Shown one piece after another: positions 46,689 through 55,875 of a stretch of DNA of 64,000 nt (positions are counted from its first letter, which is position 1; every line of letters starts with the position of its first letter). The stretch spans positions 1 to 64,000 of the forward strand of contig JANDLV010000006.1 of the NCBI GenBank assembly GCA_024330185.1, written 5' to 3'. The DNA is from Candidatus Siliceabacter maunaloa. GTDB taxonomy: Bacteria; Actinomycetota; Thermoleophilia; Solirubrobacterales; Solirubrobacteraceae. Made by a program: the position numbers and the translations under genes. A model generated the notes under the pieces. It was not told where the DNA came from, ran no database searches, and saw nothing but the letters and a program-made list of their open reading frames with translations.

Positions 46689-47612
46689 TCACGCCGCGGC
46701 CAGGTGCCCGGCGATCGCCCGGGCGATCGGGAGCCCGGTGTGGTGCTCGTAGTAGGAGAACGCCGGGCTGGGGTTGACCTCGAAGCACCAGGCCCGGCCG
46801 TCGCCGTCCAAGCGCAGGTCGATCCCCGACAGCTCGAGGCCCAGCGCGTCGGTCAGCCTCAGGCAGCGGCTGGCCAGGTCGCCGTCCAGCGCGTAGGGCT
46901 CGAGGACCGCGGGGCTGCCGACCTGGTGCACGGCGTAACGGTAGTCCACGGCGTCGCTGACGATCCGGCAGGCGTGCACCTCGCCGCCGACGCAGTGCAC
47001 CCGCACGTCGAAGCCCTCCACGCGCTCCTGGAACTGGACGGGACACCAGCGGATGCGCTCCAGGCGCCGCAGATCGTCGTCGTGCAGCTCGCGCACGATC
47101 GAGCGCACGCCGCTGATCGACTTGAAGACGACCCGTCCGTGACGCCGGCGGAAGTCCAGCACGGCCTCGGGGTCGTTGGTGACCAGGGTGCGCGGGACGG
47201 CGAGCCCGTGGCGAGCGATGAGCTGGGCCTGGTAGGGCTTGGAGGCGTTCGAGCCCTGAGGGGCGGCGCGGTTGACGACACGGCCGGGCATGACCTCCGT
47301 CCAGCCCGCCAGCGCCGCGTGCAGCGCCCGGCAGCGCGCGCTCCACGGGTCGTCGGCGGGGCGGCCCTCCACGTCCGGCAGGCGCCGGTCGTCCATCAGG
47401 CGGGTGTAGACGCCGCGGACCTCCTCCAGCGTCACCTTCAGTGGGCCGAGACGCAGACGGCCGGTCACGCAGCCGTCGCGGACGGCGCCCTCCAGCCCGT
47501 ACTCCGCCCACCGCCGCTGGTGGAAGACCGCGAACGGGTGGCCGAGTGCCCGCAGCTCCTGCCCCACGAGCGCGAGCGGGCTCTCGGTGGGGATCCCGCA
47601 CAGGAGGATCAC
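46689..47612 (-). CDS. ATP-grasp ligase (RimK-like)
   Basis: 307 residues from GTG 47612, overlapping the upstream stop (GTGA). The first 110 residues form a pre-ATP-grasp fold (ILLCGIPTESPLALVGQELRAL; GRVVNRAAPQGSNASKPYQAQ). The ATP-binding part has GRVVFKSISGVRSIVREL, VQFQERVEGFDVRVHCVGGEV, and GLELSGIDLRLDGDGRAWCFEVNPSPAF with the metal Asp/Glu/Asn. Such ligases join a carboxylate to an amine. It is last in an operon with an I9-like protein, a subtilase and an unknown protein; the likely substrate is a peptide. Confidence 0.85.
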   Translation of the reverse strand: MILLCGIPTESPLALVGQELRALGHPFAVFHQRRWAEYGLEGAVRDGCVTGRLRLGPLKVTLEEVRGVYTRLMDDRRLPDVEGRPADDPWSARCRALHAALAGWTEVMPGRVVNRAAPQGSNASKPYQAQLIARHGLAVPRTLVTNDPEAVLDFRRRHGRVVFKSISGVRSIVRELHDDDLRRLERIRWCPVQFQERVEGFDVRVHCVGGEVHACRIVSDAVDYRYAVHQVGSPAVLEPYALDGDLASRCLRLTDALGLELSGIDLRLDGDGRAWCFEVNPSPAFSYYEHHTGLPIARAIAGHLAAA

Positions 47613-48328
47613 GCCAGCCGCCGGGCGAGGAGGTCGAGCAGCGGGGCTCCCGCGAAACGCAGGTCGGGTAGCGTCGTCGCGGTGGCGAAGCTCAGGTCGC
47701 CGTCCGGACCCCGCGCCAGCCCCACCCCCAGCAGCTCGGCGCCCACGTCGTGGGCCAGGGCGGTGCAGCCCGTCGCCAGCGGCTCGGCCTCGGGCGTGCC
47801 GAACACGGTGCCGCAGGCGACGACGAGCCACGCCGAGGGCGCCTGAGCCCTCTCCTCCAGCGCCGGATAGGGCACCTGCGCCGCGTCGCCCAGCGCCAGC
47901 GGTGCGCAGGGCAGCCCGGCGCGCCCCGCGCGCAGCGCCCACTGCGCCCCGTCCAGCCACAGGCCGCACAGGCTGTAGGGCGTCGGACGGTTGAGCACGG
48001 GTCCGGGCAGCGCGGCCAGCCAGCTCAGCCAGAGGGCGTGCAGCTCCTGGGCGGCGTACTCCCGGTCGTCGGCGGCCACCGGGCCCGACAGCGGCGGCAC
48101 CGCGGTCAGGCGGTTGAGCGTGCCGACCACCTCGCGCGAGTCGATGGTGCGCCCGTCGGCCAGCACGATTCCGGCGCTCGCGCCGTCCGTCCCGACCGCG
48201 TGATGCCAGGTGCGCGCGCGCAGCAGCTCACCGGAGCCGACGGGCTCCAGCGCGACGCCGCGCGCGCGCAGGCCCTCCAGGACCCAGGCGGCGCTGGCGT
48301 CGTCCGGGTCGTGGAGTAGCAGACGCAC
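47609..48328 (-). CDS. unknown protein resembling a pre-ATP-grasp domain
   Basis: 239 residues from GTG, 11 bp after the subtilase stop. No family recognised. By eye residues about 68-150 (EVVGTLNRLT, AADDREYA, LHALWLSWLAALPGPVLNRPTPYS, AGLPCAPLAL) line up with the front half of the ATP-grasp protein downstream (EVRGVYTRLM, ADDPWSA, LHAALAGWTEVMPGRVVNRAAPQG, GLAVPRTLVT). The ATP-binding core is missing. It could be a substrate-binding partner of that ligase. Confidence 0.55.
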   Translation of the reverse strand: MRLLLHDPDDASAAWVLEGLRARGVALEPVGSGELLRARTWHHAVGTDGASAGIVLADGRTIDSREVVGTLNRLTAVPPLSGPVAADDREYAAQELHALWLSWLAALPGPVLNRPTPYSLCGLWLDGAQWALRAGRAGLPCAPLALGDAAQVPYPALEERAQAPSAWLVVACGTVFGTPEAEPLATGCTALAHDVGAELLGVGLARGPDGDLSFATATTLPDLRFAGAPLLDLLARRLA

Positions 48329-48339
48329 CTCGGCGGCGC

Positions 48340-50238
48340 TTACCAGCCGCCTTCCGCGAGCTTCTCGGGCTCCTCCTTGGGCTTGGCGCCCAGGTCGGGC
48401 TCGTCGCCCAGCGCACCGGCGCCCAGGTCGGGGCGCAGCTCGCCGCCGATGAAGTGCATCAGCTCGGAGACCGTCTGCTCCAACGCCTCCATCCGCTCCT
48501 CGACGCCGCCGCCGGGCGCCGCACCGATCCCGCCGCGGCGGAGGTGCTCCTGCTCGAGCACCTCACGGACCTTGTGGTCGCGGAGCTTGTGCTCGAAGAC
48601 GTGCTTGTCGGGCCGCTCCTTGATCTCGATCTTGTCCTTGCCGCGCTCCTTGATCTCGATCTTCTCCTTGATCTCGACCTTGAGGTTCTTGTCGGGGCGC
48701 TCCTTGACCTCGATCTTGTGCTCCTTGAACTCCTTGTGCTCCTTCGGCTCCTTGAGCTCCTTGAACTCCTTGATCGGCTTCGGACGGCCCAGCACCTGGC
48801 GCAGGTTGGGCCGGTTGCCGATGCGCTGGGAGGCCGGGCGACCCGGCGCGTCCTGCTGGGGCGAGCCGGTCGTGCGCAGGGTCTGCCGCGCCGTCGCCGG
48901 GTTGAGCACGGGCTGGCCCTGCGCGCGGCGCACGCCTTGGATGCACCCGAGGGCGCCCACCACGATCGGCGACGCGCTCGAGGTGCCGCTGAACTGGTCC
49001 GTGTACCAGATGCGCTCGTCGGTGCCGCCCTGGAGGTCGCCGTAGGCCGCCGCCGTGACCTCGCGGCCCCAGCCCTGCACGTCCACGCAGGAGCCCCAGT
49101 TGGAGAAGCCCAGCCGGGAGCGGTCCGGACCGTGGTCGCGCCCGTGCGTCCCCGACGGCGGCGCTCCTGCGCCCACGACGACGGCGCCGGAGTCGCGGAT
49201 GGCCCGGTTGAACGGATTGCGCCAGCTCGCGGGGAAGCCGGCCTGGGGCGTGTTGTAGATCGGGTCGTCGAGGTTGCGCGAGCCGTTGCCCGCCGCCTCG
49301 ACCACGATCACTCCCTTGTTGGAGGCGTAGCGCATCGCATCGAACTCCGCCGGCCACCACTCCATGGCGATGAAGCCGTCCTGTCCGGAGCCGCTGGCGC
49401 CTGGGCCGGGGGCGTGCAGCTCGATCAGGATGATGTCGCCGGCGCTCAGGGCGTCGGCCGCCGCCCGGATGGCCGCGGCGGCGCCACCGGTGACGTTGAA
49501 CGAGAAGCCCCGGCAGTGAGCGTCTGGGCAGATGCCCGTGACACCGAAGGGGTTGACGTCCCCGCCGTACTCGCTGACCACCGCGGTGCCGTGGTTGCGC
49601 CAGTTCAGCTCGGTGCGCTGGGTCCCGACCACCCCGCCCTGGTTGACGATCAGGTCCTCGTGGTCGAAGCGCCAGGCGCCCTCGATGTCGATGATGCGCA
49701 CTCCGGCGCCGCGGCCGCCCGGGAGCGTCCACGCGAAGCGCGCGTCGATGCCGGCCGGCGAGGCGTCCAGGTAGATCTGGCGCGCCGTGAAGTCCGGGCT
49801 GATCGGCGGAGCGAGCTCCTCGGCGGGGACCATCTCGTTGAGCCCCTCGAGCTCGACGGCGGGCTGCGGAGCGGGGGCGACGTACGCCCCGACGACCCCG
49901 TCGGTCGCGAGGATCTGCTCCGCCAGGCCCTCCAGGTCATCGGCGGCGCCCTCGACGGTGTAGTAGCGCGACAGGTCAGGCGCCTGCGCGCCGGTCGCCG
50001 CGGACTGCTCGGCGACGGCCTGGCGCACCCGGTCCTCCGAGGGACCGAAGAGGGGCACGAGCCCGGCGCTCGCCGCGTCGAGGGCGCTGGCCAGCGGTGC
50101 GGCGTCGACGGCCGCGGCGTCGACCGTGCCACCGCGGGCGGTGAAGCCCGCCTGCGGGTCGACGATCACCACCAGCCGGGCGTCGGCCTCGAACTCCGAG
50201 GTCTTGCCGGCGGAACGGGAACGGCGCTGCTGAGGCAT
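48340..50238 (-). CDS. signal-less subtilisin-like protease with Lys/Glu-rich tail
   Basis: 632 residues. N-terminal I9-like segment ends DGVVGAYVAPAP (about 85-125). S8 catalytic residues: Asp184 (IIDIEGAW), His216 (WRNHGTAVVSE), Asn318 (EAAGNGS) and Ser420 (FSGTSSASP). No signal peptide: the start MPQQRRSRSAGK is hydrophilic, so it is cytoplasmic or exported another way. Residues about 486-556 are Lys/Glu-rich; a short coiled coil (EERMEALEQTVSELM) and an acidic end AEGGW follow. First large gene of the ATP-grasp operon. Confidence 0.88.
   Translation of the reverse strand: MPQQRRSRSAGKTSEFEADARLVVIVDPQAGFTARGGTVDAAAVDAAPLASALDAASAGLVPLFGPSEDRVRQAVAEQSAATGAQAPDLSRYYTVEGAADDLEGLAEQILATDGVVGAYVAPAPQPAVELEGLNEMVPAEELAPPISPDFTARQIYLDASPAGIDARFAWTLPGGRGAGVRIIDIEGAWRFDHEDLIVNQGGVVGTQRTELNWRNHGTAVVSEYGGDVNPFGVTGICPDAHCRGFSFNVTGGAAAAIRAAADALSAGDIILIELHAPGPGASGSGQDGFIAMEWWPAEFDAMRYASNKGVIVVEAAGNGSRNLDDPIYNTPQAGFPASWRNPFNRAIRDSGAVVVGAGAPPSGTHGRDHGPDRSRLGFSNWGSCVDVQGWGREVTAAAYGDLQGGTDERIWYTDQFSGTSSASPIVVGALGCIQGVRRAQGQPVLNPATARQTLRTTGSPQQDAPGRPASQRIGNRPNLRQVLGRPKPIKEFKELKEPKEHKEFKEHKIEVKERPDKNLKVEIKEKIEIKERGKDKIEIKERPDKHVFEHKLRDHKVREVLEQEHLRRGGIGAAPGGGVEERMEALEQTVSELMHFIGGELRPDLGAGALGDEPDLGAKPKEEPEKLAEGGW
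48571..48783 (-). repeat. Lys/Glu repeat region in the subtilase tail
   Basis: About 71 residues built of KE pairs: first FKELKEPKEHKEFKEHK, then longer IEVKERPDK / IEIKERGKDK / IEIKERPDK units, which repeat about every 20-22 residues. It is encoded by a run of CTCCTTGA-type triplets in which plus-strand repeats are visible. Confidence 0.9.
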
Positions 50239-50302
50239 GGGGACTCCTTCCGTGGAGACGGGGACGAGAACGTCTGGCTGTCGGTGCGCCGGGAAGGGCG
50301 CG

Positions 50303-50539
50303 TCAGGGAAGGCCGGGCGACGGCTGGACGTAGGCGCCCTCGACCTCCTCGAGGCCGGTCAGCCGCTCGCTCACCTCCCGCGCGGTCTGCTCGTCGGGTA
50401 CCTCGACGGTGGAGTAGGTGGCCATCCCGGCGTCCTGCGTGCCGGGATGCACAGGACGCAGACGGAGACCCATCGTCGCCACGACGTCCTGCACCACAGC
50501 AGCGTCAGCCTCGTCCTTGAGCTTGACCATCACGTCCAT
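50303..50539 (-). CDS. small I9-like protein (propeptide or inhibitor in trans)
   Basis: 78 residues, ATG 50539 with GAAGGA in front. It starts MDVMVKLKDEADAAVVQDVV and ends ERLTGLEEVEGAYVQPSP, the ferredoxin-like shape of the I9 prodomain, including the final strand EVEGAYV, and is similar to the N-terminal segment of the subtilase (GVVGAYVAPAP). I9 domains fold and inhibit subtilases. Encoded 64 bp upstream of the protease, it may act as a separate chaperone/inhibitor. Confidence 0.65.
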   Translation of the reverse strand: MDVMVKLKDEADAAVVQDVVATMGLRLRPVHPGTQDAGMATYSTVEVPDEQTAREVSERLTGLEEVEGAYVQPSPGLP

Positions 50540-52726: not shown

Positions 52727-55700
52727 TCAGCCGGGGAGATCGGCCACCTGGAAGGTGTGGATCTCGCCGCGCATGCGCTCGGGCAGGTAGCCGGTGAACG
52801 CGATGACCGAGTGGGTGGTGCCCTCGCGACCTCGCAGCGAGCGCAGCGTGTCCTCGTCGAGCTCCTCGTCCAGGGCCCAGCGCCCGTCCTCGATCTCGAT
52901 CTGGCGCTCGAGGGTCCGCTCCTGGCCACCCCGGGCCCAGCCCAGGCGCAGGCGCACGACGCCGCGCGCGTCGTCGTCGACGGTGCCCTCGGCCACCAGG
53001 CGCCCGTCCTCGGTGATCACGGGGCGCTCGGGCTCCAGGTCGCTGGGATTGTTCGCCGCGCGCAGGCGGACCTCCTGGGGCCGTGTGTCCTCGTTGCCGG
53101 GGTAGCGCATGGTGAGGATGCCGGTGCCCATGCGGGCCTGGTCGGCGCCGATCTCCTGGCGGAAGCGCAGACGGCCGTTCTCCGCGTCGATCGGCTGCTC
53201 GAACCCCGTGTCCTCGCCGGCGGCACGGAACGTGGCGTCGATCTCACCGGAGGCGCGGCGGGTGATCGGCGCCAGCACGTCGAGCTCACGGTCCGCACGG
53301 CGCACCCGCGCGCGGGAGACCTGGAGCTTGGCCGGCCAGCGCGGCAGTCCCTGCGGTGGGCCGGCGCCCGGAGGCGGCCCGGCACCCGGCGGAGAGCCGC
53401 CGGCCCCCGGGGGCGGCCCGGCACCCGGCGGAGAGCCGCCGGCCCCCGGGGGCGGACCGGCACCCGGCGGAGAGCCGGCTCCCGGGGGTGGGCCACCACC
53501 CGGGGAGGGCTGCTCGCCGCCCGGCGGCTCCTCGCCTTCGTCGGGCGTGGTGCCGAGGCCCACGATGATCGAGTCGTGGTCGGAGGCGCGGAACTCGTCC
53601 TCGGCGAAGAGCTCCTCGGCGCCGCTGTAGCCGTAGGCGAAGGCCTCGTCGGCGTTGGTCATCCACGTGTCCGCTCCGGCCACCCGCTCGGCCAGCTCGG
53701 GCGTGACCAGCGCGTGGTCCAGGCGCCCGTGCGCGCCGAAGAAGGTGAACGTGTACCGCTCGGCGACGGGGATCCCGGCCAGCAGGTCGACCAGGCCCGC
53801 CTCACGCAGCACGTCGATCGGGTCTTCCATGCCGTAGGAGTTGAGGTCGCCCAGCACAAGCACGTCGGGGTCGTCCGAGCTCTCCCGCAGCTCGGTGACG
53901 AAGCCCAACAGGGCACGCGCCTGGTCGACGCGGTCGGCGTTGAAGCAGCCCTGGCCGTCCTCCTGGTCCGCGTTGGCGTCGGACTCGGGCGGCTTGTCGG
54001 TGAGGGCTCCGCAGCCCTTGGACTTGAAGTGGTTGCTCAGCACGGTGAACACCTCGTCGCCCGCGCGGAAGGTCTGGGCCAGCGGCTCACGCGCGTTGTC
54101 GAACGCCGGCTCGTCCGTGAGCGACACCGACTCGCCCACCCGCTCGACCATGGCCGGCCGGTAGATCATCGCGTTCTTGATCGCGTCGGTCTCGCCGTAG
54201 GGATCGGGCTCGGGCACAGCCGCCCAGGTGTTCGCGCCGGCGTCCTCGTTGAGCGCGTCGACCAGCGACTGCGTGGCCACGTCGCCGTTGTTCTCGATCT
54301 CCTGCAGCGCGACGACGCCGGCGTCGAGGTTGTTGATCGCGTCGACGATCTTGGCCTCCTGGTCGTCGAACTCCTCCGGGGTCGAGGCGCCGCGGGCCTC
54401 GGGGTTCTCGGGCGTGTCGAGCGTCGTGAAGTAGTTGAGGACGTTGAAGCTGGCCGCGCGCACGTCGCCACCGACCTGCGGGGGTCCGGCGGGCCGCGCG
54501 TTGACCTCGGCGAAGGCCAGCGGCTCGGTGGGCTGCACGCGGTAGTTGCCGAAGCCGAAGGACAGCACGCCGGTGAGGCGCGTAACCGTGTCGCCGCGGC
54601 GAACGGGATCGCCGGGCGCCAGGTAGGGCACCGGCTCGGGGTCCCTGGCGTTGCTCCCGTCGTCGAGCAGCAGCGCACGTCTCGCGTTGTCTGCGGCGAG
54701 GGCCCGGGCCTCGGGACCGGGCTCGACGGCCTCGGTGGGGTTGACCAGCGGGCCGCCGGAGGCCAGCAGGACCTCGCCGAAGCGGTTGGTGTTGAAGGTG
54801 TCGGTGGCGGCCAGGTCACCGGAGACGCGGACGAGCATCCCCTCCAGGCGCTCGCGCTCGCCGCCATCGGAGGGCACGGGCAGCTCGGTGGGCGCCGGCA
54901 GCGCGGCGGCTTCGTCGCATATCGTGAACTCGTCGACCTCGTCGACCTGGGTCAGCCCGAAGAACTCGTCCGCGGTGCCCCGCACGCGGACCGCATCGCC
55001 CTCGTCGAGCGCGGCCGCGTCGGGATCGAAGACGAACAGGCCCTCGGAGGTGGCGGGGTCGCCGTCGCCTTGGGGATCCTGGATGAACACGCCGTCCAGC
55101 CCCGGCTGGAAGTCGCCGACCACGACGCCCCGGGTCTCGACCTCCTGGCCGACCAGCGCGCTCTCGTTCCCGCTGCCCTGGATCTGGGCGATCGGCGTGG
55201 CCCCCTCGGCGTCGCAGACCGGCGGCGGGCCGGGCGGCGGCTCCTCCTCGGCGACGTTGGCACGCCCGAAGGTGTTCTCCAGCGGGCCGGTCCAGACCCC
55301 GTCGATGAGCTGGAGGGACTGGCCTGCGGGCTCGCTCCCCGCCTCCTGCGCGCCGATGTCCTCGAGCAGCATGCCGTCGGCGGGACCGCCGACCGCGGTG
55401 AACGAGCCCTCGTAGGAGAGCTCGTCGACCACCTCGCCGGCCGCGTTGGCGAGCACGATGCCATCCGGTGAGCCGTTCTGGATGCCGTTGGGGGGATATT
55501 CCTGCACGACGAAGCCCGACTCGGGGATCGGCCCGCTCAACGTCTTCGTGTCGTACGAGGCCCCGTTGTTGCCGTTGTAGAGCACGATCTCCCACCCCGT
55601 CAGGTCCGTCCCCGCCGGCCCGGCCAACTCGATCGCCTCGCCCTCGTCGGTCCCCGTGTTGTCGTAGTGGAACTCGTTGATGCGCACCTCGGGCGCCTGG

Positions 55701-55774
55701 GCGGCAGCCCCGGCGGCGAAGGCGAGGGCGGTGGCGAGGACCGCGAGCAGGCTGACCAGTATCCGAGGGCTCAT
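52727..55774 (-). CDS. secreted endonuclease/exonuclease/phosphatase-family nuclease (ExeM/NucH-like)
   Basis: 1015 residues from ATG 55774, the start that gives a signal peptide ([23 protein letters not shown]). Order: lamin-tail domain ([21 protein letters not shown]), OB-fold ([26 protein letters not shown]), a second OB-like stretch, then the DNase I-like domain with [41 protein letters not shown] and the final SDHDSIIV. A Gly-Pro repeat linker (53336-53540) leads to a 202-residue module shared with the subtilase at 32720. An extracellular DNase for nutrient supply or biofilm change. Confidence 0.93.
52730..53335 (-). other. C-terminal module, copy B (nuclease)
   Basis: The last 202 residues of the secreted nuclease, from PAKLQV to the stop, aligned with copy A at 32723-33322. 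In the first 90 aligned positions I count 48 identities by hand, without a gap. The linkers before the two copies are both Pro-rich but built of different repeats. Confidence 0.85.
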
Positions 55775-55875
55775 GCCCGGCAGGGTGGCTTGACCGCCCC
55801 CTGGGCTTGTGACAGGAAAGTGAAGTAACACGTTCGTCACATCGCGGCCCCCGCGCGCAGGAAGGGTGCCCGATC
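55775..55875. promoter_or_regulatory. divergent promoter region between nuclease and 5'-nucleotidase
   Basis: 101 bp between two start codons. It is less GC-rich than its surroundings and holds TGTGAC (55808-55813) and GTCACA (55836-55841), an inverted repeat with a 22-base spacer. One regulator could control both secreted enzymes; none is identified. Confidence 0.4.

Follow-up and report, generated by a model that had tools for sequence, protein, structure and literature searches.

A candidate follower-directed modification tail on a signal-less subtilase encoded beside a two-protein ATP-grasp pair in Candidatus Siliceabacter maunaloa

Described graspetide ligases and protease-linked loci

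Among solved structures, the nearest relatives of the ligase reported here are PsnB, of the plesiocin pathway, and MdnC, of the MdnB-MdnC pair of the microviridin pathway. The known substrates in these pathways are small precursor peptides bearing an N-terminal leader; the graspetide leader motif (PFFARFL; Phhx(1,2)h) is short and hydrophobic. Carter et al. 2026 (PMC13097080) recently described corallotide and rosaritide, partner-dependent graspetides with Lys-Asp isopeptides in KxxxD repeats, which rely on an oxygenase and a SurA/PpiC-like protein as partners and whose precursors are not fused to enzymes. Two other studies bear on the substrates that such ligases accept: Choi et al. 2025 (PMC12291112) showed that a graspetide ligase is able to crosslink whole proteins, and Johnson et al. 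2026 (PMC13003496) that the fuscimiditide leader still works when moved to the C-terminus, the ligase thus accepting a recognition sequence that follows the core.

Makarova et al. 2022 (PMC8939145) reported two groups of ATP-grasp loci, branches 7 and 8, which contain peptidases of unrelated families and for which no precursor was predictable; branch 8 also has a truncated, inactive ATP-grasp, and its precursor was suggested to lie elsewhere. The loci studied here combine unrelated peptidase families with a truncated ATP-grasp in the same way and are very probably those of branch 8, while group 32 of Carter et al., with its “diverse families of neighboring proteases” (PMC13097080), may overlap with them. 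The wider gene association was therefore already published in 2022, and the new part is the precursor assignment: where none was predicted in branch 8, we propose the C-terminal tail of the protein encoded upstream of the ATP-grasp pair, which gives a directly testable answer to the published question of what the precursor of protease-linked ATP-grasp loci is. No such assignment was found in the open-licence literature, and an article about conflict systems that bear peptidases (PMC7159879) makes no mention of ATP-grasp.

The four-gene locus

The window analyzed is a stretch of 64,000 nucleotides from Candidatus Siliceabacter maunaloa (Solirubrobacterales, Solirubrobacteraceae), namely positions 1-64,000 of the forward strand of contig JANDLV010000006.1 in assembly GCA_024330185.1. 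The initial annotation had placed four same-strand genes in tight order at 46689-50539; all four were found as open reading frames on the minus strand, and the spacings given there (64 bp, 11 bp and a 4-base overlap) are exact on the ORF coordinates. Judged by eye from the translations, uvrB-like and uvrA-like genes flank the locus, and PADLOC returned no defence match. A 1037-aa protein encoded at 52727-55840 (minus strand), also identified by eye only, is apparently secreted and carries a nuclease/phosphatase-like part and tandem repeats.

The first gene encodes P0001 (50303..50539, minus strand), an I9-like small protein of 78 aa that is a probable inhibitor/prodomain-type partner of the subtilase. 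Its Pfam match (Fervidolysin_NPro-like, E 0.006) is weak and below cut-off, but an I9-like protein adjoins all five of the other upstream-complete subtilases of the same type (L056, L064, L067, L069 and L070). On this comparison the I9-like gene is tied to subtilases of the P0002 type alone and lies outside the general module described below.

P0002 (48340..50238, minus strand, 632 aa) is a Peptidase S8 (Pfam E 6e-15) with intact HGT, AGN and SGTSSASP motifs, the catalytic Asp, His, Asn and Ser being present, and it displays 50-64% identity to six tail-bearing subtilases. It had been described as signal-less, in agreement with a simple hydropathy check, which revealed no stretch resembling a signal peptide. 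Its catalytic core covers about residues 145-485 (48784..49806, minus strand). Tail-less homologues share with P0002 only the prodomain and this core, which is 64% identical to the Nostoc protein and 56% to that of Haloferax, and those on plasmids align at most to residues 482-485; no ATP-grasp was seen in the five neighborhoods of tail-less homologues inspected. Two of these homologues (L026 and L027) are carried by plasmids of Nostoc, a cyanobacterium, and Haloferax, an archaeon, a striking horizontal spread for a signal-less subtilase. The subtilase was also modelled with AlphaFold from seven sequences, but at a pLDDT of 42 the model was too poor for use.

The final 145 residues of P0002 include a K/E-repeat segment, a short coil and the sequence FIGGELRPDL. 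The repeat segment (residues 490-568; 48535..48771, minus strand) is the proposed core of modification and spans 79 aa rather than the 70 first assigned to it. The alignment places a short coiled-coil-like stretch (EERMEALEQTVSELMH; 48454..48510, minus strand) before FIGGELRPDL (residues 596-605; 48424..48453, minus strand), which we propose as the recognition (follower) motif.

The last gene encodes P0004, hereafter P4 (46689..47612, minus strand, 307 aa), already annotated as an ATP-grasp ligase and guessed to be of graspetide type. A profile built from 43 homologues retrieved PsnB (7e-47), MdnC (6e-35) and CdnC (1e-34) far ahead of RimK (6e-13), with PruB and AMdnB likewise ranking well above RimK. 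Residues K164, R204, H206, D223-Y-R225, D265, E278 and N280 are invariant in the 43 P4 proteins; the DYR triplet aligns to the DFR of PsnB, and the ATP-binding Lys (K164) and the Mg2+ ligands (D265, E278 and N280) are kept. P4 shares both ligase fold and catalytic residues with PsnB and MdnB-MdnC. The sequence SNxSKPYQ served as a search pattern for P4 and was left out of this evidence. Since P4 scores 125 bits against NCBIfam TIGR04187, below the curated cut-off of 350, and belongs to a divergent branch, we did not assign it to TIGR04187 or to the MvdC or MvdD maturases. The comparison shows P4 to be a ligase of graspetide-synthetase type with intact catalytic residues.

P0003, hereafter P3 (47609..48328, minus strand, 239 aa), had been taken for a “pre-ATP-grasp” protein, and it matches TIGR04187 only weakly. 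It is indeed related to ATP-grasp, as a degenerate copy: the profile of P3 aligns with that of P4 over the full length (probability 99.8%), the central ATP-binding part of P3 is deleted, and the Mg2+ ligands, the Lys and the DYR residues are gone. The AlphaFold model of P3 (pLDDT 93.4) has MdnB, AMdnB and PruB as its nearest structures. Together these comparisons show P3 to be a degenerate paralogue of P4, and therefore its likely partner protein. Searches of plasmids and solved structures with P3 or the subtilase alone found little.

Recurrence of the tail with P3 and P4

Relatives of the locus were collected by a scan keyed solely to P4, in which neither the tail nor P3 was a search criterion. 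It yielded 45 loci, with up to 57% identity, from Acidobacteria, Chloroflexi, Actinomycetota, Bacteroidota, Cyanobacteria, Nitrospira, Pseudomonadota, archaea and others. P3 is recognizable in 44 of 46 loci, that of Ca. Megaera counted. The gene upstream of P3-P4 varies widely, its N-terminal domain being a subtilase (of two kinds), an M6, M64, astacin, C13 or trypsin-like peptidase, a tyrosinase, a Kelch or an Ig-like domain. What these proteins have in common is the C-terminal end: the strict motif FIxxxxRPx[LVIM] lies within 60 residues of the C-terminus of the upstream protein in 35 of the 46 loci and in the window, with a close variant in L059, against none of the 697 other ORFs of the loci and 13 of 72,000 shuffled tails. 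A tail profile gave exactly one match per genome in all 16 genomes with a tailed upstream gene, each time at the P3-P4 locus. Comparison thus shows the K/E-repeat tail with FIxxxxRPxL to be the constant feature of an otherwise variable gene preceding P3-P4.

There are exceptions to this pattern. A recognizable motif near P4 is missing in four of the 46 loci (L063, L073, L075 and L076), of which L063 has upstream genes that look incomplete while L075 and L076 have other K/E-rich neighbors; in L061 the motif occurs only on a fusion of P4 with PqqD, the tails of L047, L053, L060 and L066 have low K/E content, and the Megaera peptide has the motif and Lys with few acids. Where the upstream tail is absent, a K/E-repeat protein is usually still nearby. 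Three cases outside the loci used to define the motif (G142, G1074 and the viral-collection contig L112) contain tail, P3 and P4, as predicted, the tail carrier in G1074 being a Rho_N-domain protein, not a protease; contrary to prediction, G779 has P4 without P3 or tail.

The P4 tree requires 11 changes in the catalytic type of the upstream gene and two in the motif trait; four changes are needed for subtilases of the P0002 type, and seven catalytic types occur within a single clade of 18 members. The comparison therefore shows catalytic domains swapping over the tree while the tail persists. Tail, P3 and P4 recur jointly over many phyla far beyond chance, and clustering of the ORFs from all loci revealed no widely recurring neighbor beyond these three, for which reason readings of the locus as part of a secretion system, a transporter or a defence island were dropped. 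On this comparison the conserved unit is tail, P3 and P4, with the protease as one interchangeable N-terminal domain among many. The initial annotation had the protease trimming the product; that idea fails as an explanation of the system, because the N-terminal domains are interchangeable and the upstream domain is sometimes no protease at all.

When some 1,700 genomes were searched with profiles, the P4 ligase turned up in less than 1% of them in every phylum sampled. The annotation had also suggested looking for the same gene order in other actinobacteria: the four-gene unit is absent from 100 genomes of relatives of the same order, where P4-like matches have other contexts, yet tail, P3 and P4 are found together in distant phyla, which indicates horizontal movement. 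The locus in the window is thus probably a member of a widespread, rare and horizontally moving module made of a tailed protein and a two-protein ATP-grasp machine.

Following Makarova et al. 2022, the peptidases could instead cut cellular proteins to feed the ATP-grasp, with precursors located elsewhere and the tail serving as a docking or localization element. Peptidases do predominate among the upstream genes, and the subtilase motifs are intact; however, the motif is also kept by a 41-aa peptide and by upstream proteins of the tyrosinase, Kelch, Ig and Rho_N kinds, every genome tested has a single such tail, and in a sister clade the motif is carried by small K/E-repeat proteins without a recognized enzyme domain. 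We hold this supply of peptides by the protease to be quite improbable.

Order within the tails and its predicted modification

The residues of the tails are strictly ordered. Over 31 tails K[ED] occurs 311 times (152 expected), whereas KK occurs 9 times (143 expected) and two successive acids 4 times (145 expected); the ordering is less strict in K/E-rich segments of other ORFs. A further possibility is that the tail binds P3-P4 unmodified, the K/E part being a flexible linker, and that the ATP-grasp has a small molecule as its substrate or controls the enzyme by non-covalent means. K/E-rich linkers are indeed common and no product is known, but the avoidance of KK and of acid pairs is not linker-like and P4 resembles peptide-modifying ligases, so that we give this possibility very little weight. 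Among 26 non-redundant K/E segments, an acid follows Lys at +1 in 262 cases (121 expected) and at +4 in 166 (114 expected), and here too KK and acid pairs are nearly missing; the enrichment at +4 arises in part from a three-residue period, and thus it does not fix the connectivity of the rings.

These tails resemble RiPP precursors in sharing a recognition motif, FIxxxxRPx[LVIM], among the presumed substrates of related ligases, and in presenting ordered donors (Lys/Ser/Thr in RiPP precursors) and acceptors (Asp/Glu), here as matched K-[E/D] repeats. The start of the motif, [P/H/T/S/A]FI, is reminiscent of the graspetide leader motif; however, in the window and the main clade it does not lie in an N-terminal leader as in plesiocin and microviridin, being a C-terminal follower behind the core on a full-size enzyme. 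The earlier suggestion that the Lys/Glu tail is the substrate of the ligase is, its stated length aside, well supported by the comparison, and very probably the P3-P4 ligases modify it.

We infer the chemistry of the links and the purpose of the modified tail as follows. P3 and P4 would form a complex, to which the C-terminal FIxxxxRPDL would bind as a follower; P4 would phosphorylate Glu/Asp side chains of the K-[E/D] repeats and join the activated acids to nearby Lys side chains in isopeptide (lactam) links, perhaps in a KxxxE register as in corallotide, and this would yield a full-size enzyme whose tail bears several crosslinks. As a guess, the hardened tail might give protection to the enzyme or its product, or tether or restrain either of them, and, equally as a guess, the I9-like protein might restrain the subtilase. 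We consider it probable that this explanation holds as a whole, that is, the module, follower binding by P3-P4 and Lys-Glu/Asp crosslinks in the tail. The chances are slightly better than even that a graspetide-type ligase and its pseudoenzyme partner naturally crosslink, under the direction of a follower, the K/E tails of numerous unrelated full-size enzymes, and that in the protease-associated graspetide loci this tail fills the place of the precursor that was missing.

Alternatively, P3-P4 could use the tail as a substrate and add glutamate or another amine to it, by a RimK-like ligation and with no internal crosslinks. The membership of P4 in the RimK-like ATP-grasp superfamily and the abundance of acid and amine groups in the tail speak for such an addition, but P4, with its DFR-type motif, is much nearer to the macrocyclases than to RimK, and tagging would not need Lys and acids in matched ordered pairs; we regard the addition as unlikely.

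Crosslinking of the tail, with dependence on a partner protein and Lys-acid repeats, would follow the pattern of corallotide and rosaritide (PMC13097080), where the partners are of other kinds than a degenerate ATP-grasp and no enzyme bears the repeats; oxygenase neighbors as in those systems also occur at L031, L061 and G1074. The follower arrangement, engineered in the case of fuscimiditide (PMC13003496), would here be natural. If true, graspetide chemistry would extend from small peptides to whole enzymes, the recognition signal would operate naturally from the C-terminal side, a catalytically dead ATP-grasp would be a dedicated partner, and the short motif would be a portable tag for protein-tail crosslinking.

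The sister clade offers the opposite orientation: in L068, L071, L072 and L077, K/E-repeat proteins bear F[IV]xxxxRP at the N-terminus, the usual position of a RiPP leader. These loci and L061 support the view that the K/E repeats form the core, with the motif serving as a recognition signal in either orientation, as judged by sequence comparison.

Several individual loci deserve mention. The proteins encoded at 3367-4257 of L072 and 5768-6811 of L077 consist mostly of xxEK repeats after an N-terminal FIxxxxRP and have no recognized enzyme domain. L061 (1174-9571) is a RiPP-like cluster of Nostoc with PqqD, a transglutaminase-fold protein (B2-type), P3, P4 fused to a PqqD-like part, two WelO5-like oxygenases and an ABC transporter; by eye, the start of its K/E-rich 103-aa peptide resembles a lasso-type leader pattern. 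On a plasmid of Ca. Megaera (L031, 5696-9196), a 41-aa Lys-rich peptide with FISFDLRPDL accompanies an ATP-grasp, a downstream P3 and two 2OG-Fe(II) oxygenases. In L083 (2469-4940, G177) an M43 peptidase whose C-terminal part is rich in Pro, Lys and Asp adjoins a P4-like ATP-grasp, with no P3; this may be a counterpart from branch 7, its precursor likewise placed on a peptidase. Finally, L018 (4888-6114), from G018, of the same family, encodes an 88-aa peptide of TTLAIGEE-type repeats directly 5' of an ATP-grasp with 40% identity to P4, and is thereby a relative's graspetide locus of the plesiocin-like kind.
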